Shown one piece after another: positions 829-40,532 of a stretch of 41,136 nt of DNA. Position numbers and translations under genes: made by a program. A model generated the notes under the pieces. The model worked only from the letters and a program-made list of their open reading frames with translations. It did no database searches and had not been told where the DNA came from. The stretch covers positions 1 to 41,136 of the forward strand of contig DUPM01000010.1 in the NCBI GenBank assembly GCA_012838315.1, written 5' to 3'. The stretch comes from Clostridiaceae bacterium (lineage in GTDB: Bacteria > Bacillota > Clostridia > Saccharofermentanales > Saccharofermentanaceae). Every line of letters begins with the position of its first letter. Position 1 is the first letter of the stretch.

Positions 829-3800
829 TCATTCTTCATCGCTTGACACAAGTAGATGCCTTGCATTCTGGCGGCGATGGAACAAGTCATAGAGTATCGG
901 AACAACAAACAGTGTAAGGAGTGTCGCGTAGGTGAGGCCACCTATCGTTACAATGCCCATCGGTTGCATGATCTCAGATCCGGCATTGAGTCCGAGAGCC
1001 ATCGTGCTCATGGCCAGAATTGTCGTCAGTGCGGTCATCAGAATGGGTCTGATACGTGCTTCGCCGGCATCAATTAATGCCTCTTTTTGGGGAATACCGT
1101 CATCTTTTAGTTGGTTAACATAACTAACGAACACTATACCGTTATTTACAACGATGCCGGCGAGAACAAGAAAGCCTAGCATTGCGATAATTGAAAGTTC
1201 CATGCCGGTCGCCCATAGCAACAACAGACCTCCGGTAAAGGCAAGGGGCAAGGTGAAGAGGACGATAAATGGCGATAAGAGGTCTTGAAATTGGGCGACC
1301 ATGATGAGGTAGATAAAGACGATTGCTAACAAAATCATCAACACCAAATCCTTGAGCGAAGACTGAATCATTTCGTTTTCGCCCTCGACAGTCACTTCAT
1401 AACCGGCAGGTGCCTGGTAATTCTCGAGTTTTGCCTCGACATCGCGACTGACCAAGCCGATGTTATAACCTTCGGCGATGCCGGCGCTGACGGTCATATA
1501 ACGTGATTGACCGGCACGATTGATGGATTGCAAACTTGGGGTATCCACGATTTCTGCAATATCGATTAAGAATACTTTGGACTGCGTGCCATCCATTTTT
1601 GTTACATCAAAACTGAAATAGGGAAGCATGTCTTTCGAAATTTGTTTCTGCTGGTCTTTAATTAAGACCACGGGGAAATTATCGTCATCTTGAGAGAGGA
1701 TTGTGGCTTGAACATCGGTTTGCAAAGCGTCAGCAATCTCACCGTAAACTTGTGCAACGGTCAGCCCTTCTCGCATCGCTGCTGATTTATCAATGATGAT
1801 ACGTGTCTCGGTATCCGCGTCTTCAAGGCCGTTAGTGACATCAGTTGTCCCGGGAACGGTCTTCAATATCTCAGCGACTTCGTTCGAAATGCTAGCGAGT
1901 TGGTCCAGGTCATAGCCTTTGATGTTGATTTGGATGCCGCTTCCGCCAAGCGCTGCCATATCCATGCTATCTGAACTGATCGACAGTTCGACATTAAGAT
2001 CTGCGACCTTTTCGGAAATGGCCTTTTCTACTTCGCGATTCGTCATGCTTCTTTTGTCCTTGAGAAGGATATAAAAAGTGGATTCGCTTTCGGATCCACC
2101 TCCACCGAGAAGAGCAAGACCGGATTGGCCACCGGCCATGGCGCCAACAGTTTCAACGTCTTTAACCTCAAGAATACGAGCCATGACCTCATCATTGAGT
2201 GCATAGGCTTCCTGATCAGAAAATTCTTCCGGCGTCGAAAGTGAAGCAGACAATTGAGGCGCATTCATTGCAGGAATAAATGCCGTGCCCATGACAGTGA
2301 CACCATAAATGCTGACGCCAAGAAGAATCACAGTAAGTATCAGCACAATAAACTTAAATCGTAGTGCGCCGGCAAGCATACGCTTGTAGACTTTGATTAC
2401 TGAGTCAAAGATGCCATGCTTTTTCTCGTTAACATTTCTCAACAATGTGGCACCCATTGCGGGAACTAACGTCAGGGCCACAATTAAGCTTGCGGTCAGA
2501 CTGTAGGCAATGGTCAGCCCCATATCGGTAAATAACTGACGCGAAATACCTTCAGTGAATACGATTGGCAAGAAAACGCAAATCGTTGTCAGAGTGGAGG
2601 CGAAAATCGCACCTGCAACTTGTTTGGCACCTTCAATTGCAGCTTTGGCAGAGGGTACGCCAAGATGCCGCATATGGTAAATGTTTTCAATAACAACAAT
2701 ACTGTTATCGACAAGCATGCCAACACCCAACGCCAGACCCGAAAGAGAGATAACATTCAACGTGACGTTTGTAAAATACATGAGTGTCACAGCGAACATT
2801 AAGCTGATCGGTATACTGAATGCAATGACAATCGTTGGGCGAATATCTCGAAGGAACAGTAAAAGAATTAATATTGCCAGAATTCCACCGATAACCAAAT
2901 TCTCAAGTACACTTCCGGTGACGATATCAATATAATCTCCTTGGTCCATCAATTGAGTGACTCTAAGCCCGGGGTGTTGCTTTTGAAGAGAAAGTATCTC
3001 GTCTTGGATGAGATCAGAGACTTCTGCGGTAGAGGCGGTGCTTTGCTTTTGAAAGACTAAGAGTACGCCGTCGTTACCGTTGATTTTGGCATAAAGTTCG
3101 TCGGAATTGTCGGTGAGGGTCACATCTGCGATGTCGGATAATAAAATATCGCCTACGGGTTCCGTGTTAAAAATGACTAAGTCGCGTATTTCTTCTGAGT
3201 CTGCAAATGAATCACCGACTTTGACAAGGTTTCTAACTTCGCCATCGACAAGGTATCCGGCAGGCATGCTGAAGTTCTGCGCGAAGAGGATGCCTTCGAG
3301 CATATCTTCAGTAATCATAGAATTCAGATCCAAACTAGTAAGTGCCTCACCCTTTGCTTTTTCAAATTCTGCAAGGGCCGTTTCGAGTTCAGTCTGTCCG
3401 TTTTGCAGTTGCATTTGGGCCTTTGCAAGTTCAATTGATGCAGTCATCTTACCGGACTCTAATGCGGAGTAGCCGGAATTTGCCTGGTCGAGAGCGCTTT
3501 GAATTTGAGGCTTCATGGCTTGCAACGCGGTCATTCGCATATCAATGTTTTGAATTTCCATGTCCAACTCTGCAATACGAGCTGGGGCTTTCATCGCTTG
3601 GTCCAAAAGAAGGGCAAGTTGCTCCTCGCTCATATTAGCGAGTTCCGGGGGAAGCTCCCCGTCCTCACCGGCGAGTCGTGCAAATATTTCAGACGGCGAA
3701 AGCCCCTGAATTCCTTCAGGGAAAGTGGTTTCCCACTGATTTATTAATTCCTGAATTTGCTCCCGCGTGGGGGCTTGGCCGGGTGTAAAGGGCGTCGTGA

Positions 3801-4662
3801 TAAAACCGGAAAACATTTGAAGGAGTTGCTCCAACCCAGCTTTTTCAGCCTGGAAAACGGCCTTGTTCGTCTCGAGCAATGTTTCCTCGGCTAAAATCGA
3901 ATTCAAATTGGCGATGGCATTGTTGAGTTGGCTTCCGGCCTGTCCCAACTTTGATGTCTGAGATTTCGTTTCGTCTGCGAGAGTTGCCTGGCCATTTTCT
4001 AGTTCGGTCATCGCATCCGTGAGTTGCTGTTGCGTCTCATCGAACTTCGACTCCATTTCTTTTTGAATCTTGTCATTCAATTCCTTGATGTTTTGAGGGT
4101 TGAGCTTGATTTCAACGCGTTTTTCGACCATGCCTTCCGGGCTGACGGAAGCCACACCATCAATACGCTCAAACGCCGGAATAACGGTCTCGGAAGCAAA
4201 TGCGGACAATTCGTCGACACTCATACCCTCATAATCCACACTTGCGACAATAATGGGCATCATATCCGGACTGATCTTCATCAGCATGGGAGACCCCACC
4301 ATGTCGTCAAAGTTGGCAGAAGCCATGTCAACAGTTCCGGACAGCTCAATCATTGCGCTGTCCATATTGGTACTTTGCACATATTCAAGAATGATGATGC
4401 TTGCATTTTCGCTGGATACGGACTGGAGATTGTCAAGTCCGCTCGACGTGCCAAGTGCCGCTTCTAAAGGGCGCGTCACGGATTGCTCCACCTTTTCAGG
4501 GCTGGCACCGGGATATGAGGTGACGACTACGACATAGGGAAGATCGAGGGATGGCAATAAGTCGGTTGCCATGCCTTGAAAAGAAATCACGCCGAGAACG
4601 ATGATAAGGATGACCGCAACAAGAACGGTGTAGGGCTTACGAACACTTAATTTTGATAGCAT
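829..4662 (-). CDS. RND-family efflux transporter (AcrB/SwrC-type) with a large coiled-coil insertion
   Basis: 1277 residues, compared with about 1050 for ordinary AcrB/SwrC proteins. The RND layout is clear: an N-terminal membrane helix, the first extracellular loop containing SYPGASPEKVEQSVTRPLE, a helix block with GLALGVGMLVDNSIVVIENI, a second extracellular loop, and a final block with AGIVVNNGIVFVSYVNQL. The extra length sits at about residues 196-440, between the EIKLNP strand and the segment ending in FAQNFSMPAGYL. It is rich in Q, E, A, L and K with heptad character, so coiled coil is likely. No membrane-fusion adaptor or outer-membrane channel gene is visible nearby, as expected for a monoderm. 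The start at 4662 has GGAG 8 nt upstream. It is probably proton-driven; the substrate (drug, lipid or surfactant) cannot be told from sequence. Confidence 0.92.
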   Translation of the reverse strand: MLSKLSVRKPYTVLVAVILIIVLGVISFQGMATDLLPSLDLPYVVVVTSYPGASPEKVEQSVTRPLEAALGTSSGLDNLQSVSSENASIIILEYVQSTNMDSAMIELSGTVDMASANFDDMVGSPMLMKISPDMMPIIVASVDYEGMSVDELSAFASETVIPAFERIDGVASVSPEGMVEKRVEIKLNPQNIKELNDKIQKEMESKFDETQQQLTDAMTELENGQATLADETKSQTSKLGQAGSQLNNAIANLNSILAEETLLETNKAVFQAEKAGLEQLLQMFSGFITTPFTPGQAPTREQIQELINQWETTFPEGIQGLSPSEIFARLAGEDGELPPELANMSEEQLALLLDQAMKAPARIAELDMEIQNIDMRMTALQAMKPQIQSALDQANSGYSALESGKMTASIELAKAQMQLQNGQTELETALAEFEKAKGEALTSLDLNSMITEDMLEGILFAQNFSMPAGYLVDGEVRNLVKVGDSFADSEEIRDLVIFNTEPVGDILLSDIADVTLTDNSDELYAKINGNDGVLLVFQKQSTASTAEVSDLIQDEILSLQKQHPGLRVTQLMDQGDYIDIVTGSVLENLVIGGILAILILLLFLRDIRPTIVIAFSIPISLMFAVTLMYFTNVTLNVISLSGLALGVGMLVDNSIVVIENIYHMRHLGVPSAKAAIEGAKQVAGAIFASTLTTICVFLPIVFTEGISRQLFTDMGLTIAYSLTASLIVALTLVPAMGATLLRNVNEKKHGIFDSVIKVYKRMLAGALRFKFIVLILTVILLGVSIYGVTVMGTAFIPAMNAPQLSASLSTPEEFSDQEAYALNDEVMARILEVKDVETVGAMAGGQSGLALLGGGGSESESTFYILLKDKRSMTNREVEKAISEKVADLNVELSISSDSMDMAALGGSGIQINIKGYDLDQLASISNEVAEILKTVPGTTDVTNGLEDADTETRIIIDKSAAMREGLTVAQVYGEIADALQTDVQATILSQDDDNFPVVLIKDQQKQISKDMLPYFSFDVTKMDGTQSKVFLIDIAEIVDTPSLQSINRAGQSRYMTVSAGIAEGYNIGLVSRDVEAKLENYQAPAGYEVTVEGENEMIQSSLKDLVLMILLAIVFIYLIMVAQFQDLLSPFIVLFTLPLAFTGGLLLLWATGMELSIIAMLGFLVLAGIVVNNGIVFVSYVNQLKDDGIPQKEALIDAGEARIRPILMTALTTILAMSTMALGLNAGSEIMQPMGIVTIGGLTYATLLTLFVVPILYDLFHRRQNARHLLVSSDEE

Positions 4663-13848: not shown

Positions 13849-16119
13849 TTATGCGATACCTATCATGCGCTTTTTTTCTGTTTTTTTCCAGTATATCGCC
13901 AAAATCAGAATTGATATAACCGAAATGAGCGTGACCGCCAATCCACCTTCCGGCCCGAATGCGCCACCGGTCCAAAGATCAATAGCAGAAGAACCATATT
14001 GAGTATCCAGAACGGAAGCCGATCCAATGCCGCCGCTGACACTCATACCCAATATGTTGCCTTGCGCAAAATTCCATGCCGTATGCGCAGCGCAGACGGT
14101 GTAGATCTCTCCTGTCGTTAATGAATAAAGCGCGAAAAACATTGCGATGAGAAGAAGATTCATAAAAGCAAGAAAGGAAAAGCCGGTGTTGGCAAAATGC
14201 AGGAGTGAAAAGAATAGAGACGAAAGAAATACGCCCGCAGGTACACCGAAGCGCGCTGATGTTCGAGGCAACATGTAACCGCGCATCATAACCTCTTCCG
14301 CGGCGCCCTGCGGAATCCACATCAGCACATATGCAAAAAATAAACCGATTTCTTGTTTTTGAAGGCGGATACCGATGGGGCGAATCTGTCCGGATGCGAA
14401 TAGAATGAGATACACCGAAGTAATCATGGATAAACCGAGAAGCAGTCCTCTGCCGTAAGATTTGAATGCTTTTCGGAGGGGAAAGGACGGAGTTGAACCG
14501 GACGTTGGGAACCCCAGAGTGGAGAGCTTGTTTTTTTCGATTTTAGTGACGATTAAAATGTAAGCGCCAATCATCAAATAATAGCTGATGGCCATGGATA
14601 GTAAGAATGTCGGCTGAGACATGAAGGTGGACATTATCTCGGAGATTGATGATGAGACCTGATCTGCAGAGGCGTTGCGGAGTGTCGCGGTTGCGTCGAT
14701 GATTATTTTGTATGCATCTTCTTGCTTCAAAAAATTCAAAATGGGTCCGATTAAGGATAAAGTCTGAAAAAATGACAAAATGGCAAGAGGCATCCAGAAA
14801 TGAGTGCTAATCGTTCGCATCGCCCGCCGAAGTCGTTTCGGACGATACCCGAATACGATGTTCTTGGAGGGAATTGCGGCAGCGCGCCGGGCTTCTTTAT
14901 GGGCTCGCTTTTCAGCAGCAATGAATACCTTACTTTCACTGTCATAAACGACGGTAAAGGCTTCGTAACGAAGAAGACGGATGGTAATCAGAGCCACGAC
15001 GGTGGACATAAGTATGCTTGTGAATGTGAGAAGCAACAGGTCAGCAAGTTGGGAATTTCCCAACAAGGCATCTGTGATCGCATGATAGTGTCCAAAAAAT
15101 GGAAGCTGTTTATAGATGGAGTAAATCGTACCTTCGCGTTGCATCGACATGACACAGATAACCAGAATCATCAAAAAGACCGGAAGAAAAGCCGTTTGTG
15201 CAGCAAGAATGTTTCTGCCCAGCACGGAGAACATGAAAGTGACGGTCGTCATTACCAATGCAAAAAGTACGCATACATATAAGGTAAGAAGAATTCCTGA
15301 AAGACCTACATTGATACGCATCAACATAATCAAAGGCATGAACAGGACAGCGGGCAAAATGGTTCGTAAAAAAATACCGAGCAAGTGCCCGAGAACTAAC
15401 TCGTGATGCTTGATGGGTGCTAACATCAAGCCGTAGAAGGTTCCTTTTTCTTTTTCTCCCGCAATGGAATTCACCCCGGAAGACATTGCAGCGTATGTGA
15501 TAATAATAATAAGTAGAAGTGGAATAATCATGCGCGCTGCCGTGGATTGTGGCGTTTCAAACGCTCTCTCTTCGGGTTGCAAAGTGGTCCGGTTTATTGC
15601 AAATCGGAAGGGCTCATCACGAAGTTCGAGGCCCTTTTGTGCAACAAGGTAAGATGAATAGCTCCGCAAAACATATTCGCAAATATCTTCAGGTTCAGAA
15701 CTGTCTGTGACGTCTGGGTTAATGTATGTCAAAACGTCTGGAACAGAAGAATCCGTATCGTCATTCAACTGATTATCAAAATTTGAGGGGAAAGCAATGG
15801 TCGCAATAGCATTTTGCTCGCGCATCGTTCGATTAATAGAAACGAAATCATAAATTGTCGAAGATTCGATATTGATAAAAGCCCTCTGTTCGTTCTCATC
15901 AAAAGATTCATAAAAAGAAGTTGGTGCATTAAAGACAACGATATTTGGCTGTTCGCTTTCAGTATCGTCACCAAGGTCCAAGGAATAAGAAGCCGCAATA
16001 AATAATAAGGAGACAAAGAATAATAGCACAGCTAAAAATGTTATCGCTGATATTCTTGTCTTGAAGCCTATTCCGGCCGAAAAAGTCTTTTTGGCTAATG
16101 TAAAAATGACACTTCTCAT
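13849..16119 (-). CDS. Fusion of ABC-2 permease (NatB-type) and CPBP intramembrane protease
   Basis: 756 residues. The N-terminal half (about 1-400) is an ABC-2/NatB-like permease: one helix, a large outside domain (about 50-190), then five or six helices, with GEKEKGTFYGLMLAPI as the conserved coupling segment. After a cytosolic stretch (about 395-430) comes a second membrane block. Its CPBP signature includes AAEEVMMRGYM (near residue 606), FSLLHFANTGF and HTAWNFAQGN, which carry the Glu-Glu and His residues of the metal site. All active-site residues look intact, so proteolysis in the membrane is plausible. The ATG overlaps the stop of the ATPase gene (ATGA). Confidence 0.9.
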   Translation of the reverse strand: MRSVIFTLAKKTFSAGIGFKTRISAITFLAVLLFFVSLLFIAASYSLDLGDDTESEQPNIVVFNAPTSFYESFDENEQRAFINIESSTIYDFVSINRTMREQNAIATIAFPSNFDNQLNDDTDSSVPDVLTYINPDVTDSSEPEDICEYVLRSYSSYLVAQKGLELRDEPFRFAINRTTLQPEERAFETPQSTAARMIIPLLLIIIITYAAMSSGVNSIAGEKEKGTFYGLMLAPIKHHELVLGHLLGIFLRTILPAVLFMPLIMLMRINVGLSGILLTLYVCVLFALVMTTVTFMFSVLGRNILAAQTAFLPVFLMILVICVMSMQREGTIYSIYKQLPFFGHYHAITDALLGNSQLADLLLLTFTSILMSTVVALITIRLLRYEAFTVVYDSESKVFIAAEKRAHKEARRAAAIPSKNIVFGYRPKRLRRAMRTISTHFWMPLAILSFFQTLSLIGPILNFLKQEDAYKIIIDATATLRNASADQVSSSISEIMSTFMSQPTFLLSMAISYYLMIGAYILIVTKIEKNKLSTLGFPTSGSTPSFPLRKAFKSYGRGLLLGLSMITSVYLILFASGQIRPIGIRLQKQEIGLFFAYVLMWIPQGAAEEVMMRGYMLPRTSARFGVPAGVFLSSLFFSLLHFANTGFSFLAFMNLLLIAMFFALYSLTTGEIYTVCAAHTAWNFAQGNILGMSVSGGIGSASVLDTQYGSSAIDLWTGGAFGPEGGLAVTLISVISILILAIYWKKTEKKRMIGIA

Positions 16120-18282: not shown

Positions 18283-18330
18283 TGTGATGGAAAACAAATA
18301 ATGTTTATACATTTCGGGAGGTCACAAATA

Positions 18331-20232
18331 ATGAAAAAGAAAGAAATAATAAATTCCAAAAAAATAATAGCCATATTACTGGTTTGCATTCTTACTTTTG
18401 CTGCCGGTTGTCAATCTGGAATAAGTATTTTGTCCGAAAGTGAAACAGAGAAGACGTCTGCTAAGGTCACAACAACCGAGGAAACTGAGACGGAGACCAC
18501 CGAATCACAAGTGACTGAAGTCGTTGAGACGACATTGGCAACAGATCCTTTGGCATTTACCGAAGAGGATCAATTAGCGGCCATCGAGCAGATGGATGCA
18601 ATTGATATCAAGCTGGTTGAGAATGCCCTCGGCGGTGACTATCTCAGCATGTATTTTCGGTTGAGCCGTCCGGATGAGTTGGGTATAGAGTATCCGGCTG
18701 CGACTTTAGGTATTGAGACCTATGAAGATTATCTGGCAGATTTTGCGGTCTTCGATGAATGTGCTGATGCTCTGAAAGAAGTTAACCGAGACGCTTTGAA
18801 TCGTGAATACCAGATTATGTACGATGTGCTTGATTTAGAATTAAGTCAAATGCAATATGAGGAGCCGACTGATTTTTACCACTCCTCTGCATTTAACTCC
18901 ATCACCGGTCTACAATCAAATTTGCCGCTAACGCTTTCTCAAGTAAAGTTTAGCTCGATTGAGGACGCAGATTTATACATCGAACTGATTAACGACATCC
19001 CCAGATATTATGACGATTTCATCGCTTTAGAAAACGAGCGCGCTGATATGGGATTGACGGTCGAGGATAAGTATCTTGATAAACTTATTGAGAGCTGCGA
19101 TGCAATGTTGGCCGATCCTGATAATCACTTTATTCTCACTACATTCGAGGATCGCGTTGCGGCAATTGAGGGCATTACCGATGCTGAAAAAACCGATTTG
19201 ATTACAAGACATGAGGTGGCTGTTGCCGAGAGTTTTTTTCCGGCATATGAGACGCTCAAGTCCGCTTTTGAAGGCCTTAAGGGCAAAAGTGTTCGCGTTC
19301 GCGGACTCGAGGAAGTTGAGGGCGGGAAAGAGTATTTTGCTCGCTATTTTGCGCAACGTACGGGTATGTACATTACGCCTGAGGAGGGAATCACTCTGCT
19401 CGAAAGCGAGTTTGAGGCATTGCAAACCGAGTTGTTCGCATTGGCTGTAAAGGAAGGCGTCTTTGACGCATATATGAGTATGGATGTCACAATGGGAGAC
19501 GTGTCCGAAAACGTCGAATTTTGCAAACAAGTCATAGAAGAAGATTTCCCTGCACTGCCAGAGCACAATCTGATTCTCGAAGATGTTCCCTCTCAGGTCG
19601 AAGAGTTTTTTAGCCCAGCCGCATATTTTATGTGCCCGATTGATGACCCGAGTGTCAACATCATTGTTATCAATAATTCCCAGCTTTCTGATACACCTAA
19701 CATCTTGAGCACCATCGGACATGAAGGCTATCCCGGTCATCTTTTTGAAAATGTGTATCATGCATATCACATGACAACGAATTATCAGAAATTGTATAGT
19801 TCGACAGCTTACTCGGAAGGTTGGGCGGAGTATGCCGGTGAATATGTCATGTCTAAAGCCGACGTCAATCAAGATGCCGCGCGACTGGCAGCGATTGATT
19901 CGATGTACACAAAAATTCTTGTTTCGAGAATAGACATCGGTGTGAATTACGAGGGTTGGACTTACGAGGATACCAAGGCCTATATGGCGGAATTGGGAAT
20001 TTCCGATACCGCGACTATAGATCAAATTTGGGATATTGTTGTCGAGATTCCCTGCTACTACACCCCTTATTGCTTCGGTCATCTGGAGACGATTCGTATT
20101 CTTGGCGGTGCCATCGAGGCAACAGAAGGCAAGAAAACAATCAAAGAAGTTCACGAGGCCTATTTAGACGTTGGACCTGCCCCATTCCCGGTTATTGAGC
20201 AGTATATAAATGAATTTGTAAACAATGCTTAA
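18331..20232 (+). CDS. DUF885-family metallopeptidase-like lipoprotein
   Basis: 633 residues. The basic start and hydrophobic helix end in FAAGC, so Cys27 is the lipid attachment site. A Thr/Glu-rich spacer follows (about 35-70). The body matches the DUF885 family, including GHEGYPGHLFE (His464-Glu465 and His470) and SEGWAEYAGEY, a gluzincin-like arrangement pointing to a zinc peptidase on the outer face of the membrane. I chose the ATG at 18331 with GGGAGG 9 nt upstream; an in-frame ATG at 18301 would add ten residues and has no ribosome site. It diverges from the ABC-2 operon. The substrate is unknown. Confidence 0.88.
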   Translation: MKKKEIINSKKIIAILLVCILTFAAGCQSGISILSESETEKTSAKVTTTEETETETTESQVTEVVETTLATDPLAFTEEDQLAAIEQMDAIDIKLVENALGGDYLSMYFRLSRPDELGIEYPAATLGIETYEDYLADFAVFDECADALKEVNRDALNREYQIMYDVLDLELSQMQYEEPTDFYHSSAFNSITGLQSNLPLTLSQVKFSSIEDADLYIELINDIPRYYDDFIALENERADMGLTVEDKYLDKLIESCDAMLADPDNHFILTTFEDRVAAIEGITDAEKTDLITRHEVAVAESFFPAYETLKSAFEGLKGKSVRVRGLEEVEGGKEYFARYFAQRTGMYITPEEGITLLESEFEALQTELFALAVKEGVFDAYMSMDVTMGDVSENVEFCKQVIEEDFPALPEHNLILEDVPSQVEEFFSPAAYFMCPIDDPSVNIIVINNSQLSDTPNILSTIGHEGYPGHLFENVYHAYHMTTNYQKLYSSTAYSEGWAEYAGEYVMSKADVNQDAARLAAIDSMYTKILVSRIDIGVNYEGWTYEDTKAYMAELGISDTATIDQIWDIVVEIPCYYTPYCFGHLETIRILGGAIEATEGKKTIKEVHEAYLDVGPAPFPVIEQYINEFVNNA

Positions 20233-20287: not shown

Positions 20288-20370
20288 AACAATGATTTTA
20301 TTGAACTATTTATCTGATGCTGTGCTTCGGCACAAGACAATGCATAAGGTATTTCTGGGAGGCTCACCTC

Positions 20371-22944
20371 ATGGCAAAGATGACTCGTCTTGCAACGACG
20401 ATAACAGCGAGATACTACCCGACTTCGGATATGACAGATGCTTTTTTCGCGGATGGCCGGTTGGCCGGTAAAAGAGAAAACCGTGCCGCCGATATCACGA
20501 TGGACAAGGAAGATGGCGGATTTCTTATGGCCGTCTTCTCACACACCCCCGAACTGAGCGGTGACGCTTCTGATACACCGGCTTACGAGCCGATTATCAA
20601 GCGACTTCACAATGACATCAAGTCCGGCAAGAGACAATTGGATGACCAGATTGGCGATTTTGTTAATACTGCTGTGATGGTCAGCGGTCGGATGAAGATT
20701 CAGGCTGAGAGCAACAGATCGCCATATTTTTCGGGATTTATTGTTAAGGATACTGAAGCCTTTGCGATTACTATGGGTAAAGGCTTGGCGTTCTTGTACC
20801 GTGATGACACGCTCTTTCCGATGACAGCAACGGATATTCCGATTGAGCCAATCAATACTCAGCGCCAAAAGGTTGATCATTTTTACAATTATTGTGCTTC
20901 GAAGACGGCGACTGCTTTGTGTTCAAATATTGCACAACTTAAAGTCGATGATTGCCTTATTATATGCAATAGGGAAGTCTATGATGCGCTCGGACAAAAA
21001 GAGTTGCTTCGAATTCTTTATGACGCGGAAGATCAGTGTGAAGCCGCAGGTAATGTCATTACAGAGGCTGCTGCAAAGATGCCGAATGTACCGCTTCAGT
21101 TCCTTATTTCATTTGTTGAGAATGTGACAGTTCAAGAACGCGGTGGTTTTTTCGGCTTTGGACGCAAGAAGAAAAAGAATGAAGAAGATGTTTCTCGTCA
21201 TCATGAGAGTTCTTCTTCCGGTTCTTCCGATGCTGTTGAGTCAGGGGCGACCATGGCTTTCAATCCGGTGAATCCCACAATCCCTGTTGCACCCGCTGTT
21301 CCGGTCACCCCTTCGGTGCCGACGGCGCCCGTGTTTGAGCCCTTGCTTTTTGATACGGATTCCTCTTCCGACCGCAAGATAGACGTAGCAAAGCCGGATT
21401 CGATATCCTTCGTATCAGATGAGCCGCCAGTAAATACAATTATTCCGGCAGACCAACTCAATCGGTCTGTCTCAGAACAAGAGCTCTCGTCCGAGCCAAC
21501 TGCTATAAGCGCGAAGAGTGACGGATTATCGAATGCGCCTGCTAAGGAGGACGCAATACCTGATGCGTCCCCAGTTGAGCAGCAGACTGATGCAGCCGGT
21601 TTTTTCAAAGTGGCTGAGACAGATGAAGATTCATCTGTTGATCAAGCGCAACCGCAAGCCACTTTTGCACAGAAAGAGGGTGCGCCTCAGGCGAGTCTCA
21701 GCGAGAGTCAGACGCATATCATGAGTGAAGCAGAAAGGGTGGATGAAGCTCGCACTTCTATTCAGCCGGCCAAGTCCGCGACATCGACTTCAGTTGCGGA
21801 AGAAACGGAGAGTAATATGAATCGTTTTGATTATGATGAAGACGAAGCACCGAAATTTCTGCAAGATGATGAAGACTTGGATGAATCCCCATTGTTTTTT
21901 GGAGACGCCCCTGAAGAGCCTGTTGTTTCGGATACCGATGCTGACAATTATGTAGATTTCACTCCGGATCAGCCGGATGAGAGTGTGCCTGAAGACTTCT
22001 ATTACAACGATGAGGTATCTGAGTCTCAGAAATCTCGACCGGTCGCTCAAGACGGCGGATACTATATTCCTTTTGAGGATACAGATATGCCGATTCCGGT
22101 TGTCGGACAGGCACAGGATATTCCTGAAATGCCGACTTATGCGGCACCTAGTTATTCACCGCCTAGTTTTGATAACGACGAGGCACCAGTGCAAGATGAT
22201 ACTGGTGTATATGCTAGAGGTTCATTCATTACGGACGAGGAGGCAGCTGCCCCTTCAACGTCGTATTCTGACTTTTCAGAGACGCCGCCGGCACCAGCGT
22301 TTGATTATGATACTTTTGAGAGATCCGCTTCAAGGCCTAGGCCTCAGGGCCCCCAAGGGGGCCGGACGGGTCCCCGCCCGGGCTCAGGTAGACCGCGATC
22401 GGGAGATCCTTTCGAAGAAGAAAAGGGATTTGACTACGGTCGGCCGGATTCTGCGTACCAGCGAAATAACTGGCTGATGTTCATTATGGCTGGAGTTTGT
22501 CTTGTTTTGATCATTATCATAATTGTTTTGTTTGTAGTCAAGGCATGTGATAAAGACGAAGCGCCGGCAGAAACAAAAAGTACCAGCGCGTCTCAGTCGG
22601 CTGTCATCGATTCATCTACACCGGCAACGGACCCGAATTCCACCGTCGATCCGAGTACTTCGGTTGATCCGAATGCTTCGGTTGATCCGAATGCTTCGGT
22701 CGATCCGAATGCCACTACCGCTGTGCCTGTCGTATCCGGAGACTCTCAGGGCACATTCGTGTTTTCGGAAAACACCGGATTTAGGACGTGGTGGGATCTT
22801 TTCCATACGGTATACAATATCAACATCACCGAGGAAACCGATCCTCGCATAGCCACAATTAAGACATACAACAATTTGCCTCCGGAATATGTGCCACAGC
22901 CCGGAGATAGTATCAATTTGCCACCGTCTGCGATGTTGCAGTAA
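20371..22944 (+). CDS. Single-pass membrane protein: degenerate PP2C-like domain, long linker, TM helix, LysM-like domain
   Basis: 857 residues with four parts. Residues 1-250 resemble a PP2C phosphatase: LKVDDCLIICNREVYDAL aligns with the usual L.LCSDGLYD.L pattern, and FLISFVENVTVQE with the last DN-containing strand. The metal-binding Asp residues look lost (NRAAD for NED, SHTPE for DGMGG, NRE for SDG). Residues 255-700 are a Pro- and acid-rich linker, preceded by a KKKK patch. One membrane helix (about 700-723) carries IIIII. Outside are DPNAS repeats and a C-terminal LysM-like domain (about 800-857, ending PGDSINLP). The ATG at 20371 has GGGAGG 8 nt upstream. It is probably a cell-wall sensor or scaffold; no kinase is adjacent. 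Confidence 0.7.
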   Translation: MAKMTRLATTITARYYPTSDMTDAFFADGRLAGKRENRAADITMDKEDGGFLMAVFSHTPELSGDASDTPAYEPIIKRLHNDIKSGKRQLDDQIGDFVNTAVMVSGRMKIQAESNRSPYFSGFIVKDTEAFAITMGKGLAFLYRDDTLFPMTATDIPIEPINTQRQKVDHFYNYCASKTATALCSNIAQLKVDDCLIICNREVYDALGQKELLRILYDAEDQCEAAGNVITEAAAKMPNVPLQFLISFVENVTVQERGGFFGFGRKKKKNEEDVSRHHESSSSGSSDAVESGATMAFNPVNPTIPVAPAVPVTPSVPTAPVFEPLLFDTDSSSDRKIDVAKPDSISFVSDEPPVNTIIPADQLNRSVSEQELSSEPTAISAKSDGLSNAPAKEDAIPDASPVEQQTDAAGFFKVAETDEDSSVDQAQPQATFAQKEGAPQASLSESQTHIMSEAERVDEARTSIQPAKSATSTSVAEETESNMNRFDYDEDEAPKFLQDDEDLDESPLFFGDAPEEPVVSDTDADNYVDFTPDQPDESVPEDFYYNDEVSESQKSRPVAQDGGYYIPFEDTDMPIPVVGQAQDIPEMPTYAAPSYSPPSFDNDEAPVQDDTGVYARGSFITDEEAAAPSTSYSDFSETPPAPAFDYDTFERSASRPRPQGPQGGRTGPRPGSGRPRSGDPFEEEKGFDYGRPDSAYQRNNWLMFIMAGVCLVLIIIIIVLFVVKACDKDEAPAETKSTSASQSAVIDSSTPATDPNSTVDPSTSVDPNASVDPNASVDPNATTAVPVVSGDSQGTFVFSENTGFRTWWDLFHTVYNINITEETDPRIATIKTYNNLPPEYVPQPGDSINLPPSAMLQ
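22348..22363. repeat. GC-only inverted repeat inside a GC-rich patch of the linker
   Basis: GGCCCCC (22348-22354) and GGGGGCC (22357-22363) are separated only by AA. They lie in a G+C-rich stretch (about 22331-22400) that encodes a Pro/Gly/Arg linker and is unlike the surrounding composition. It may form a stable mRNA hairpin. Confidence 0.7.
22627..22716 (+). repeat. Five tandem 18-bp repeats encoding [VT]DPNAS-type hexapeptides
   Basis: Five in-frame 18-bp units read TDPNST, VDPSTS, VDPNAS, VDPNAS and VDPNAT. The two central units are identical in DNA, a sign of recent slippage or duplication. They form the outside spacer between the membrane helix and the LysM-like domain. Confidence 0.92.
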
Positions 22945-25989: not shown

Positions 25990-28638
25990 TTAGGAATTTA
26001 CTTTGACAATATAGAGGTCGTTAGTCTCGAATACGATTTGGCCGTGACTTTTGATTAAATCATCTTGAATGTTCGGAAAAACATTACGCTCTAGAAGTCC
26101 GACGATGATGTATTTGACCTCGTATTGATTGAGATATGACTGAACCAGCAAAACGTCCGTTGAAGTATAAATTTGTTCAACCGCAAATCTCCGTGGGTTA
26201 ATAATCTCTTGCCAGAGATCCGGCTTCTCCTTGTCCTGGACGAGCTCGTTATTATCAAGCACACCCTGGAAGCGCCACAACCATTCATGCGTGTACCAAC
26301 CAAAAATGGTTGGCAGACCGGTGTACGAAGACACGAGACAATTGTCAGTGTAGCTGTATCCGTAAGCCTCGACAATGTTGACGATTCCGGTGACATTGTC
26401 GTTGAGATAGTCGATTGCCTGAGCGTAAGACAAAAGGCTGCCGTGGCCCATATTGAGCTGCGGGCTGTTACGTATTTTCAAAGCGACAGTCCCGTCAATT
26501 CCCTTGTAATTGGTATACTTCAGATCCCCGGATCGTTGTTCTGTCGATACGAGAGGATAATGCATTGTGATGGCAAGCGAGGCAGATAAAAGAACGGCAA
26601 CGATCATTGCTGGTGCCGAATATGTTTGGATATTTTTTGTCTCTTTTCGGTATGAGAAAAAGCGCATTGTGATATATCCTGTAATGACCGACAAAATAAT
26701 GAAGGCCTGAAACGTGAATTTGAACATCGTATTGGCACGCTTGTAGTCACCACCGTAAATATCGACAACGTAGAATAATTCTGGAAGAAGAAGCATGATG
26801 AATCCGACTGCAGCAAGTCCGCACACAAACAAATCGGCAGGATTTATGGCGTTGAAAAAGCGCGAAATGATGCATGATGGAGAAGTTTTTATCTCAGACT
26901 TTGAAGACGGTTGTCGTAATTTACGAGAAGACAAGATAATGACAAATACGATAAACAAAATCGCAAATGTGAAATGAACCCCCCAGACCATAAAAAACTG
27001 ATATATTCCGGTGCGGGATTCGACGGGCAGCAATGCGCTTGAAATCATATCAAAATTGACATGAAATGGCATGGATAGGCCGAAGGCAAATGTGAAAATA
27101 AATGACAAGACCATTGATGTTCGACTGAGCGCACACGGGAAGGCGGAGGTGAGTATTAACGATACGCACAACACAATCATCTGGAATATGAAGTGGCGCT
27201 CGGGCTGTGCGGAATATTTGAGGTATACAAATAGAATAGCGAACATTTCAATGGCAAAAATGATTGCGCCGGGCCATGTCGAAAAGTGTTTGGAAAAGAG
27301 AGTTTTGGCGATAAGAATTGCCATGGCCGAAGCAATGAAGTATATGAGAAAATCCCAGTAGTTGCACATTGTACAGATGGCGAGAAGTGATGCAATCACA
27401 ATGTAGTGATATGAAAACAACGAAGATATTTCAAATCGGGCTTGTTGAACAGATTCTTTTCGCGAGAGCCCGAAAAGCGTGAAAGAGGAGGGGTCTTTTT
27501 CGCTGATGGGACTAGACGTAACGACGACGAATAGAACGGCTAATATCAGCAGGATGACCATTGTACCTACATAATGCGCGTGTAAATCTCCAATCAGATA
27601 GGAATAGTATGGGAATTCATGAATCGTGTAATCGCCGTTTTGGATTAGTTCTCCGGCAGCATTGACGATACGCGAATCCGGATTATGTCCGATGAATCGA
27701 GTTGAGTTGGGATAGAAAAAGGAGTCTGTCTTACCGGTATTAATTCCCAGGCGAGATAAAAAACGCAGGAAAACATTTCCGATGCTTTTTTCGTCGTAGA
27801 AAAATGAATGGGCATTGCCAAAGAAGCAAACGGAAAATGCGCTGACTAAACCGGCAATAGCGCGAAATGAGGATGGCGCCTTGACGCCTTTCTGAACAGA
27901 GTAATCAAATAGCATGCTACTCAAACCGAATGCCATGATAAATGCAATCGCGAGTGTCGTGCAAATGGACATCATATATGTTACGGATGTGGACAAACCA
28001 CTGAGTCGAGTGATGAAGGCGTAAATGTATTGTCCATAATAATAATAATTAATGCTACTGCCGGCCAGCCAAGGATCGGGCGCCGGCAGCGAGTTCGTAC
28101 GAACCAGCGAGTTAAGAAATGCATAATCCATGAACTTTTCTTCGCCATTGATTTCAGGAAAAAAGCCTTTGATGTAACAAAGAAAGAGTAATACAACAAG
28201 AAACATGAGCTCGACTATGATGATCTCGTCGCGGTCTTTTACGGATTTGAGCGCGGAAATCGCGTGCGTGCGGGTGTCTTTCTTTCCCCAAGACACCACG
28301 CCTATGAGTAATACAGAAATTGAAATACTGAAGATGTTTAAAGGGACAATCTTAAGGTAAACCAGTGTCCAGACTAGAAACGACGGCAACAGTATGCCGA
28401 TCGCCTTGCTGAAAGCGTAGCCCTTGCCCTGATAGCGTGAAAATATACTCGAAGTCAGCGGATAGACTGTCAGCCCGAGGACGAGTGTGGTAATCCACCA
28501 ACGAAAAATGGACATCGCATCTTTTCCGACCCGGATGAATAATAAAACGGAAACGAGCCCAAGAACGGATATTAAGAGTATTGATAGGGGACTCGGAGTA
28601 TCAGTTCGAACGATATGTGTTTTTAAATGGCGTACCAT
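25990..28638 (-). CDS. DUF2298 (Chlor_Arch_YYY) multi-pass membrane protein
   Basis: 882 residues, more than a dozen hydrophobic helices. The family marker runs FMDYAFLNSLVRTNSLPAPD, then DPWLAGSSINYYYYGQY (the Tyr run that names the family), IGDLHAHYVG and ANTMFKFTFQAFIILS. The overall plan, with many helices and acidic or aromatic outside loops, resembles GT-C glycosyltransferases, so a role with lipid-linked sugars is an inference; no activity is proven to my knowledge. The C-terminal outside domain (about 730-882) contains GWYTHEWLWR. GGAGGAG stands 2 nt before the ATG. It is the third gene after DUF1015 and the FAD oxidoreductase, but also has its own candidate promoter. Confidence 0.88.
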   Translation of the reverse strand: MVRHLKTHIVRTDTPSPLSILLISVLGLVSVLLFIRVGKDAMSIFRWWITTLVLGLTVYPLTSSIFSRYQGKGYAFSKAIGILLPSFLVWTLVYLKIVPLNIFSISISVLLIGVVSWGKKDTRTHAISALKSVKDRDEIIIVELMFLVVLLFLCYIKGFFPEINGEEKFMDYAFLNSLVRTNSLPAPDPWLAGSSINYYYYGQYIYAFITRLSGLSTSVTYMMSICTTLAIAFIMAFGLSSMLFDYSVQKGVKAPSSFRAIAGLVSAFSVCFFGNAHSFFYDEKSIGNVFLRFLSRLGINTGKTDSFFYPNSTRFIGHNPDSRIVNAAGELIQNGDYTIHEFPYYSYLIGDLHAHYVGTMVILLILAVLFVVVTSSPISEKDPSSFTLFGLSRKESVQQARFEISSLFSYHYIVIASLLAICTMCNYWDFLIYFIASAMAILIAKTLFSKHFSTWPGAIIFAIEMFAILFVYLKYSAQPERHFIFQMIVLCVSLILTSAFPCALSRTSMVLSFIFTFAFGLSMPFHVNFDMISSALLPVESRTGIYQFFMVWGVHFTFAILFIVFVIILSSRKLRQPSSKSEIKTSPSCIISRFFNAINPADLFVCGLAAVGFIMLLLPELFYVVDIYGGDYKRANTMFKFTFQAFIILSVITGYITMRFFSYRKETKNIQTYSAPAMIVAVLLSASLAITMHYPLVSTEQRSGDLKYTNYKGIDGTVALKIRNSPQLNMGHGSLLSYAQAIDYLNDNVTGIVNIVEAYGYSYTDNCLVSSYTGLPTIFGWYTHEWLWRFQGVLDNNELVQDKEKPDLWQEIINPRRFAVEQIYTSTDVLLVQSYLNQYEVKYIIVGLLERNVFPNIQDDLIKSHGQIVFETNDLYIVKVNS

Positions 28639-38915: not shown

Positions 38916-40532
38916 GTGCCATTCTCATACAAATGCCCGAATTGTGCTGCGAATCTTCTGTTTGACCCAGATGCACAAAAAATGCGATGTGCTTTTTGCG
39001 ACGCGAAAATATCCCCGAATGACATCGTTTCTCGAGATGGCATGGAAGGGTTTATGCCCGGTGAGGCGTGGGATGAATCGACAGACGCCTATGTTTGCGA
39101 AAACTGTGGTGCAGAAGTGTTGGTTGGAGATGATACAATGGCCACATTCTGCCTGTATTGCAGTTCATCATCGATTATTCGGCGCGCTGTTACAGGAGGT
39201 GTCAAGCCAAACAAAATCATACCATTTACTTTCGGCGAAGATGAAGCACGCCGGTTGTTTTTAGAGACATGCGAGGGCAAAAAACTATTACCGCGCAATT
39301 TTGCGAATGATGAGAGAATTGAAAAGCTCAAACCAATCTATATTCCGGTTTGGCTATATGATTATGCGGTCGATGTAGACGTCGAGTTTGATAAGAGTAC
39401 GGGTTCGGCTGGAAAAGTAAATTGTGATGTGTTGAGAGATCCTGAGAATGTTTCCAAAAATACATTGTCGAAGTTTTATCGTATAATCTCATCTTCGCGA
39501 CTATTTTCATCTTCGTCAGAGAAAGTGCCGGATGACAATGTGACATACCGGAGATGCGCTGGAAACATGCTCTGGACAAAAATACCGGTTGAGGCCTCTG
39601 AGCATTTGGATGAGTCGTTGTTTTCGCGCATTGAACCATATAATTATGACCGGATGCATCAATTTGAAACTCAATATCTTTCGGGTTTTTTCGCAGAAAA
39701 ATCAGGGTTGTCTCGAGAAGAATACGATAAAAATGCTCGTGACAAGGTGTCAAATTATTCTGTTCAACTGTCTGTGCTCACAGAGGATTCTCTACAGGGC
39801 AACTTTCGCTATTCAGATCATTCGAATTACTATCCGCCCATAGCAGAATATGGAGTGCTTCCTGTTTGGTTTCTTAATTATAATTATTTTGGGAAAAAAT
39901 ACGGATTTGCCATTAACGGACAAACCGGCCGAGCTGCGGGAGACTTTCCCGTCAGTATCTTCAAATTTTCTTTATTGGCACTGGGTCTAGCGTTGGCTTT
40001 CTTCGGCTTGGGCTACCTGTTATCATCGTTGCTTTTTGTCGCTGATGGCGCGTTTTTTGATCCCATATTTAAATGGATGGATTACGCATTTCTCATCGAT
40101 CCCCGCGTATATTTATTGGGCGTTCTGGCGCGTTATGTCTTGCCTCCTATTTTGCTTGTTTCTACTTTGGTGCAGCTTTTCAAAAAGCACAAGGGCATTT
40201 CTGTTGTTGATGCTCGTACATATGCGGATAATGAAGCGTTGTCGCAATTTTGGAAACATAAGGCGGGGATTGCTTTCGAAGATAGGATGTTAATGGAAGC
40301 AGAGAAAGCGATTAGAGAGAGGGCGCGCAAGAACTCTCAAGGATCAGAAGAGCCTCATTCGGATGAAGGGAGCACTTCTGTTGTTTCGGCAGAGCCGGAA
40401 CCCATTCGTGCGGATAAAACTCTTTCTGGCGTAACGCCTGAAATGGAGATGGCTCCTGATATTGAGATTGATCCATTAGAGGATTTGCCGAAATTTGATC
40501 CGAACGGGCCAGATCCTTTTGTAAAAAAATAG
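38916..40532 (+). CDS. Double-zinc-ribbon membrane protein of unknown function
   Basis: 538 residues with a GTG start and AGGAG 6 nt upstream. Two zinc ribbons open it: KCPNC...RCAFC (Cys7, 10, 25, 28) and VCENC...FCLYC (about residues 65-85). A beta-rich middle follows (IYIPVWLYDYAVDVDVEF is the conserved part). Two membrane helices lie at about 348-376 and 395-421, then a charged, disordered C-terminal tail rich in Glu, Asp and Pro. The layout matches proteins annotated as TFIIB-type zinc ribbon-containing in Firmicutes, and the function is unknown. It follows the HIT gene by 9 nt and is probably co-transcribed. Confidence 0.75.
   Translation: MPFSYKCPNCAANLLFDPDAQKMRCAFCDAKISPNDIVSRDGMEGFMPGEAWDESTDAYVCENCGAEVLVGDDTMATFCLYCSSSSIIRRAVTGGVKPNKIIPFTFGEDEARRLFLETCEGKKLLPRNFANDERIEKLKPIYIPVWLYDYAVDVDVEFDKSTGSAGKVNCDVLRDPENVSKNTLSKFYRIISSSRLFSSSSEKVPDDNVTYRRCAGNMLWTKIPVEASEHLDESLFSRIEPYNYDRMHQFETQYLSGFFAEKSGLSREEYDKNARDKVSNYSVQLSVLTEDSLQGNFRYSDHSNYYPPIAEYGVLPVWFLNYNYFGKKYGFAINGQTGRAAGDFPVSIFKFSLLALGLALAFFGLGYLLSSLLFVADGAFFDPIFKWMDYAFLIDPRVYLLGVLARYVLPPILLVSTLVQLFKKHKGISVVDARTYADNEALSQFWKHKAGIAFEDRMLMEAEKAIRERARKNSQGSEEPHSDEGSTSVVSAEPEPIRADKTLSGVTPEMEMAPDIEIDPLEDLPKFDPNGPDPFVKK

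Follow-up and report, generated by a model that had tools for sequence, protein, structure and literature searches.

A predicted transmembrane PP2C pseudophosphatase with an external LysM-type domain, conserved across an order of gut and digester Clostridia

In Gram-positive bacteria the kinases known to read the wall are the PASTA kinases and, on the phosphatase side, PstP of Mycobacterium tuberculosis carries a PP2C domain ahead of a single membrane helix. The PASTA kinases PrkC, PknB and StkP join a cytoplasmic signalling domain, through one helix, to an external peptidoglycan-binding domain (PMC6213207, PMC5786024), a layout shared by the protein described here, and PstP is transmembrane with an external part that has been considered a putative PASTA domain (PMC12088040). 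A 2025 classification of bacterial PP2C proteins gives zinc ribbon, kinase, TPR, FHA, PASTA and other domains as their partners, and LysM does not occur once in its text (PMC12088040). Among the animal PP2C pseudophosphatases, TAB1 works through binding and regulates TAK1 (PMC8622459, PMC12002173). Our search of the open-access literature yielded no paper joining LysM, PP2C, transmembrane and Clostridia and none on bacterial LysM-PP2C proteins, while its pseudophosphatase literature consisted of eukaryotic work or unrelated papers only; a LysM-bearing phosphatase counterpart to the wall-reading PASTA kinases is not described there.

The window, by which we mean the whole stretch of DNA analysed (41,136 nucleotides of a Clostridia genome), encodes a protein that is very probably a transmembrane pseudophosphatase, judged by its PP2C/PPM identity and its predicted catalytic death. 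The first-pass annotation had proposed such a protein with an external LysM-type, presumably wall-binding, domain, and the fold, the loss of ligands, the single helix and the homology of the LysM domain all agree with that proposal. The gene coordinates it gave were also right: the stop codon ends at 22944 and the ATG at 20371 yields a product of 857 residues, the start of which coincides in alignment with the 'MAKxTRLATT' N-terminus of relatives. A longer open reading frame starting at 20317 was rejected as unsupported, the ribosome-binding site and the N-terminus of relatives both favouring 20371. Scanning the whole protein against Pfam and NCBIfam gave no informative match. Its features, all on the forward strand, are as follows.

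20357..20362 (+), probable ribosome-binding site GGGAGG, read directly, 8 nt 5' of the ATG
20371..22944 (+), whole gene for the protein (857 aa) with the order pseudo-PP2C, linker, membrane helix, LysM-like domain; open reading frame, with the start backed by the ribosome-binding site and relatives
20371..21135 (+), PP2C-like domain, residues 1-255, predicted to be catalytically dead; AF2 and Foldseek, hhalign, table of the metal site
20434..20439 (+), T22-D23, counterpart of E-D in 'NED', the E lost and the D kept; ligand alignment
20452..20520 (+), hairpin insertion specific to the family (DGR...NRAAD...EDGG), about residues 28-50; alignment
20539..20544 (+), S57-H58, aligned with D60-G61, the metal-binding Asp-Gly, which is lost; ligand alignment
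20971..20976 (+), R201-E202, aligned with D239-G240, the metal-binding Asp-Gly of 'SDG', which is lost; ligand alignment
21088..21093 (+), V240-P241, counterpart of 'DN', D282-N283, lost; ligand alignment, hhalign
21136..22470 (+), acidic, poorly conserved cytoplasmic linker, residues 256-700; composition, conservation
22117..22140 (+), DIPEMPTY (residues 583-590), a short conserved motif and candidate docking site; conservation
22471..22545 (+), single membrane helix, residues ~701-725; hydrophobic segment read directly, in the same place in relatives
22546..22734 (+), fast-evolving Ser/Thr/Pro/Asp-rich stalk outside the membrane; sequence, dN/dS 0.45
22735..22941 (+), divergent LysM-type domain, residues 789-857; AF2, hhalign, relatives with Pfam LysM at this place

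The AF2 model of the N-terminal domain was built on 58 sequences and is of moderate confidence (pTM 0.75, mean pLDDT 70). When it was compared with the PDB by Foldseek, the best 50 matches listed were all PP2C-type phosphatases, headed by the Streptococcus agalactiae phosphatase 2pk0 (E 1.6e-9), and SpoIIE (5mqh) came at rank 33 among the matches listed; superpositions of the model on PDB structures had a high rmsd. In hhalign, the domain matched a profile of active PP2Cs that included intermediate relatives at 98.5% (E 3.2e-15, residues 22-257), against 1.1% for a reversed-profile control, and canonical PrpC proteins from the same group at 92% over residues 124-251. On the predicted structure and these profile comparisons, residues 1-255 are a PP2C (PPM phosphatase) fold, in keeping with the initial reading of the strand patterns. 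An unrelated fold resembling PP2C by chance would fit with the failure of the Pfam, NCBIfam and PDB sequence searches to match the domain (Pfam gave no informative match for any of the 35 N-terminal domains collected, and a PDB sequence search with the domain profile gave chance matches only), but the Foldseek result, hhalign with its reversed control, the intermediate sequences and the tree described below make it scarcely credible. The hairpin insertion is absent from PrpC-type enzymes and common to the intermediate relatives.

For the survey of the metal site, PrpC and the intermediates were aligned with 35 members representing four families of the order and with 58 members of the window's own family. 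Positions follow the numbering of PPM1A, in which E37 is one of the metal ligands. The counterpart of 'NED' is M21-T22-D23, and the Asp of this motif (D38-equivalent; D23 in the window protein), which we take not to be a direct metal ligand, is kept in 34/35. E37 (replaced by T/V/I/K/A/F/C/Q), D60 (by A/S/T), G61 (by H/S/Y/N/T/A) and D239 (by K/R/Y/C/G/N) are kept in 0 of the 35 + 58 aligned members. The D282 column contains V/T/A/I, with D in 3/35 and E in 2/35 in one register, and P/S/A/T, with D in none, under a one-column shift. In the first-pass annotation the lost motifs were placed at NRAAD, SHTPE, NREVYD and VENVT; SHTPE and NREVYD were correctly located, whereas NRAAD lies in the hairpin insertion and the counterpart of 'DN' is V240-P241 rather than VENVT. 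Despite these two misplacements the statement that every metal ligand is substituted stands, now at T22, S57-H58, R201 and V240-P241, and the survey shows the site to be conserved as lost across the order, with neither a fold other than PP2C nor a full set of metal-binding Asp residues found there. The domain is predicted to be catalytically dead and should not work as an enzyme.

The roles of D60, D239, D282 and R33 in PP2C enzymes have been described (PMC8622459), and the phosphate-binding Arg (R33-equivalent) is absent in 20/20 members checked. The earlier suggestion that the inside part binds rather than cuts phosphate is not supported: with this residue and the metal ligands lost, no element of the known phosphate site is left, and phosphate binding of the PP2C type was rejected on these grounds. 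The same loss counts against a dead domain that traps phosphoproteins, or competes for them, shielding them from an active PrpC-type phosphatase, because the ancestral hold on phosphate is gone; pseudophosphatases are known to act by binding and by competition (PMC8622459) and PP2C-type phosphatases are present in the same genomes, but we judge this explanation improbable. Ten residues (D23, D28, R30, D41, D91, S185, N186, N200, Q209 and Q243) are invariant or nearly so in the 35 sequences, as might be expected if the old active-site pocket had been rebuilt around a small ligand or other cofactor for a new activity; they correspond to no known motif, and such a conversion seems to us highly improbable.

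The linker extends over 445 aa, of which 49% are D/E/P/S/T, with a net charge of -57, and within this otherwise poorly conserved region a DIPEMPxY-like pattern recurs in 64/74 family proteins. No signal-peptide-like N-terminus was seen in the window protein, and relatives with short linkers carry a strongly basic stretch before the helix (e.g. RRGRGRR in L059). Under the positive-inside rule the N-terminal domain is then cytoplasmic and the C-terminal domain external, the topology that had been proposed initially. At the C-terminus, Pfam LysM (PF01476) is above cut-off at the same place in L059, L063, L067, L071 and L074, which belong to other families of the order, while in one genus SH3_3 is found instead; the window protein itself falls below the cut-off with no match. 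The classification of the latter as divergent LysM-type derives from homology with these relatives and not from a direct library match: hhalign aligned its C-terminal profile with their LysM domains at 93% (E 3.5e-7), as the LysM-like reading of the first-pass annotation had led one to expect. The AF2 model of the domain has a pLDDT of 92, and its Foldseek matches, weak individually with none under E 0.8, include many known LysM proteins, such as SleL and the ectodomains of LysM receptors. The domain is presumed to bind the cell wall, and the exchange of LysM for SH3_3 at one position is as expected if the task of the external domain is to hold the wall.

Searching the class with profiles uncovered relatives in several other families with the order PP2C, membrane helix, LysM, mostly 430-540 aa in length, and LysM is above cut-off in L199, L204, L206, L208, L274-L278, L283, L292 and L293. 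One of them, L276, shows what the first-pass annotation had missed, namely that the same architecture occurs elsewhere in the class with an intact PP2C site (E 4.7e-17, all ligands present); it bears two LysM domains. Intermediate states are found in L193/L204, which keep D60, G61, D239 and D282, have D at E37 and lack the GDSR Asp, in L274, with D60 and D282 kept, and in family f10, where mainly D60 is kept and in some members D239 too. We define these proteins as a transmembrane LysM-PP2C receptor family, characterised by a PP2C-like domain with the hairpin insertion, one helix and an external LysM, and the window protein fits this description, its LysM by homology. In L279 (1093-2307) and L284 (1701-3050) the PP2C domain and membrane helix are followed by an external Big_2 (Ig-like) domain, which implies that the external part has been swapped more widely than between LysM and SH3.

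In a maximum-likelihood tree rooted on PrpC, intact forms lie near the base. The window's order groups together as a single clade (100/100) with a stem 2.24 changes per site long, nested within a larger clade (100/98) whose members are mostly decayed; support is weak for several inner branches. The intact relative of the same layout and the tree together indicate a direction from active to dead, which depends on the PrpC root, and a wall-linked receptor phosphatase has apparently become a pseudophosphatase. The membrane-anchored PP2C-like proteins L282/L286 and L283/L292 have also lost metal ligands, apparently independently of the window's order, and these separate decayed lineages suggest that catalysis was lost more than once.

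Across the Saccharofermentans/Mageeibacillus order, which consists of gut and digester bacteria, the gene is as a rule present in one copy per genome; it was found in 49/51 good genomes of relatives and in 58/62 good genomes of the window's family. Records of relatives come from Saccharofermentans, Mageeibacillus, Ca. Scatonaster and other Clostridia MAGs, many of them from rumen and gut, and these names point to Saccharofermentanales as the order. Comparison of the window with its sister species gave a dN/dS of 0.018 for the PP2C-like domain and 0.023 for the LysM-like domain, compared with 0.14 for the linker and 0.45 for the stalk; the ratios are approximate because dS is high (1.6-2.2), and the contrast between the domains and the linker and stalk is clear. 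Such strong purifying selection (dN/dS ~0.02) argues that the dead PP2C-like domain has a function. Local pseudogene decay was ruled out by the open frame in nearly all genomes and the low dN/dS.

The gene lies among housekeeping genes that differ between families: in the window's family an upstream DUF885 peptidase and downstream serC/serA recur, and elsewhere the neighbours are radA-ispD or alaS. No gene-order link to prkC/prpC or another signalling partner appeared in the neighbourhoods examined, and a functional operon with the recurrent neighbours was ruled out, there being no signalling partner among them. In the window, the DUF885 protein (18301-20232, +) is directly upstream and is kept beside the gene in many genomes of the family. 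A DUF2298 / chlor_Arch_YYY membrane protein (25990-28638, -; TIGR03662, over cut-off) recurs near the pseudo-PP2C gene; its family name points to Chloroflexi and archaea and this copy is in a Clostridia genome. Further away are an RND-type permease of 1277 aa (829-4662, -), in which residues 178-436 (~250), preceding the permease part or lying within it, match an SMC-related coiled-coil model; an ABC-2 permease fused to a Rce1-like CAAX protease domain (13849-16119, -), adjoining an ATPase and a second permease; and a 538-aa protein (38916-40532, +) with an N-terminal TFIIB-like zinc ribbon and no other domain recognised.

PP2Cs occur in most Clostridia, and the co-presence of PASTA domains and canonical PP2C in 16/16 genomes checked, close together in several of them (e.g. 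the window's own genome, C120), has for this reason little weight as a link. It does imply that the dead protein adds to the standard circuit and replaces nothing. Being strongly conserved though dead, this form probably signals or scaffolds via protein binding. We propose that the LysM-type domain would hold the protein at peptidoglycan and that the inside domain would thereby sit at particular wall sites or feel the state of the wall, while the dead PP2C domain would act through a binding partner by recruiting it or regulating it allosterically, in the way that the dead PP2C TAB1 acts on the kinase TAK1 (PMC8622459); the likeliest partner would be the PASTA kinase/phosphatase circuit or a membrane protein that this circuit phosphorylates or dephosphorylates, and the long acidic linker with its conserved DIPEMPxY motif could offer an extra docking surface. 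The first-pass idea of a mirror of the PASTA kinases, regulating a partner kinase or phosphatase, is plausible. Taken as a whole, the explanation of a pseudophosphatase that arose from an active wall-linked PP2C receptor and works by partner binding is in our estimation evenly balanced; regulation or recruitment of a partner at the wall, most likely the PASTA circuit, is quite possible but falls somewhat short of that.

The main rival is a passive tether, in which a cytoplasmic assembly such as the division or growth machinery would be tied to the wall, with the PP2C-like domain as a scaffold without phospho-signalling. The lack of linkage to kinase or phosphatase genes, the LysM/SH3 swap, the long acidic linker with its conserved short motif and the order-wide conservation would all suit it, but one relative with this layout has an intact PP2C, so that the lineage probably began in phospho-signalling, and we hold a mere tether to be rather unlikely. 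Our own broadest proposal is tentative: that the order as a whole converted a wall-sensing receptor phosphatase into a non-enzymatic receptor, a bacterial wall-linked counterpart of TAB1, which may act solely through binding to control the PASTA-kinase circuit or some other complex of wall growth, and which would belong to a wider unrecognised class of LysM-PP2C proteins in Clostridia in which catalysis was repeatedly lost. If true, Clostridia possess LysM-bearing receptor phosphatases, and in one order a dead version has been retained among the core genes. This would be an example from nature of a pseudophosphatase taking over from its enzyme, offering a direct test of signalling by dead PP2Cs in bacteria.

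Compared with the bacterial PP2Cs of PrpC/Stp1 type (PF13672/PF00481; NF033484), the window protein has the same fold, with a profile match over residues 22-257; those enzymes are soluble with all metal ligands, whereas here E37, D60, G61 and D239 are missing throughout, D282 is lost, and a hairpin insertion, a membrane helix and a wall domain are added. SpoIIE (PF07228) also has a PP2C-type domain on a membrane protein, but it is active, has no wall domain, is not the nearest Foldseek match and carries a multi-pass N-terminal membrane region, where the window protein has a single C-terminal helix. PstP is closer in layout, with its PP2C domain followed by one helix, but it is active and its external part is not LysM, while the window protein is predicted to be dead and of LysM type; the PASTA kinases, in turn, carry a kinase and PASTA repeats in place of the dead PP2C and LysM. 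TAB1 and PHLPP2 resemble it in having a PP2C fold with metal ligands lost, but they are eukaryotic and not wall-linked, and both reportedly bind a single metal at the M2 site, the ligands of which are also gone in the window protein. The direct relatives are the LysM-PP2C receptor-like proteins (L276, L274, L193/L204 and others), which have the same domain order; L276 has an intact site and two LysM domains, and the others, unlike the window protein, retain part of the site. Both the PP2C fold and the wall domain are known, and it is their combination, with catalysis lost throughout an order, that is new with respect to the open-access literature searched.
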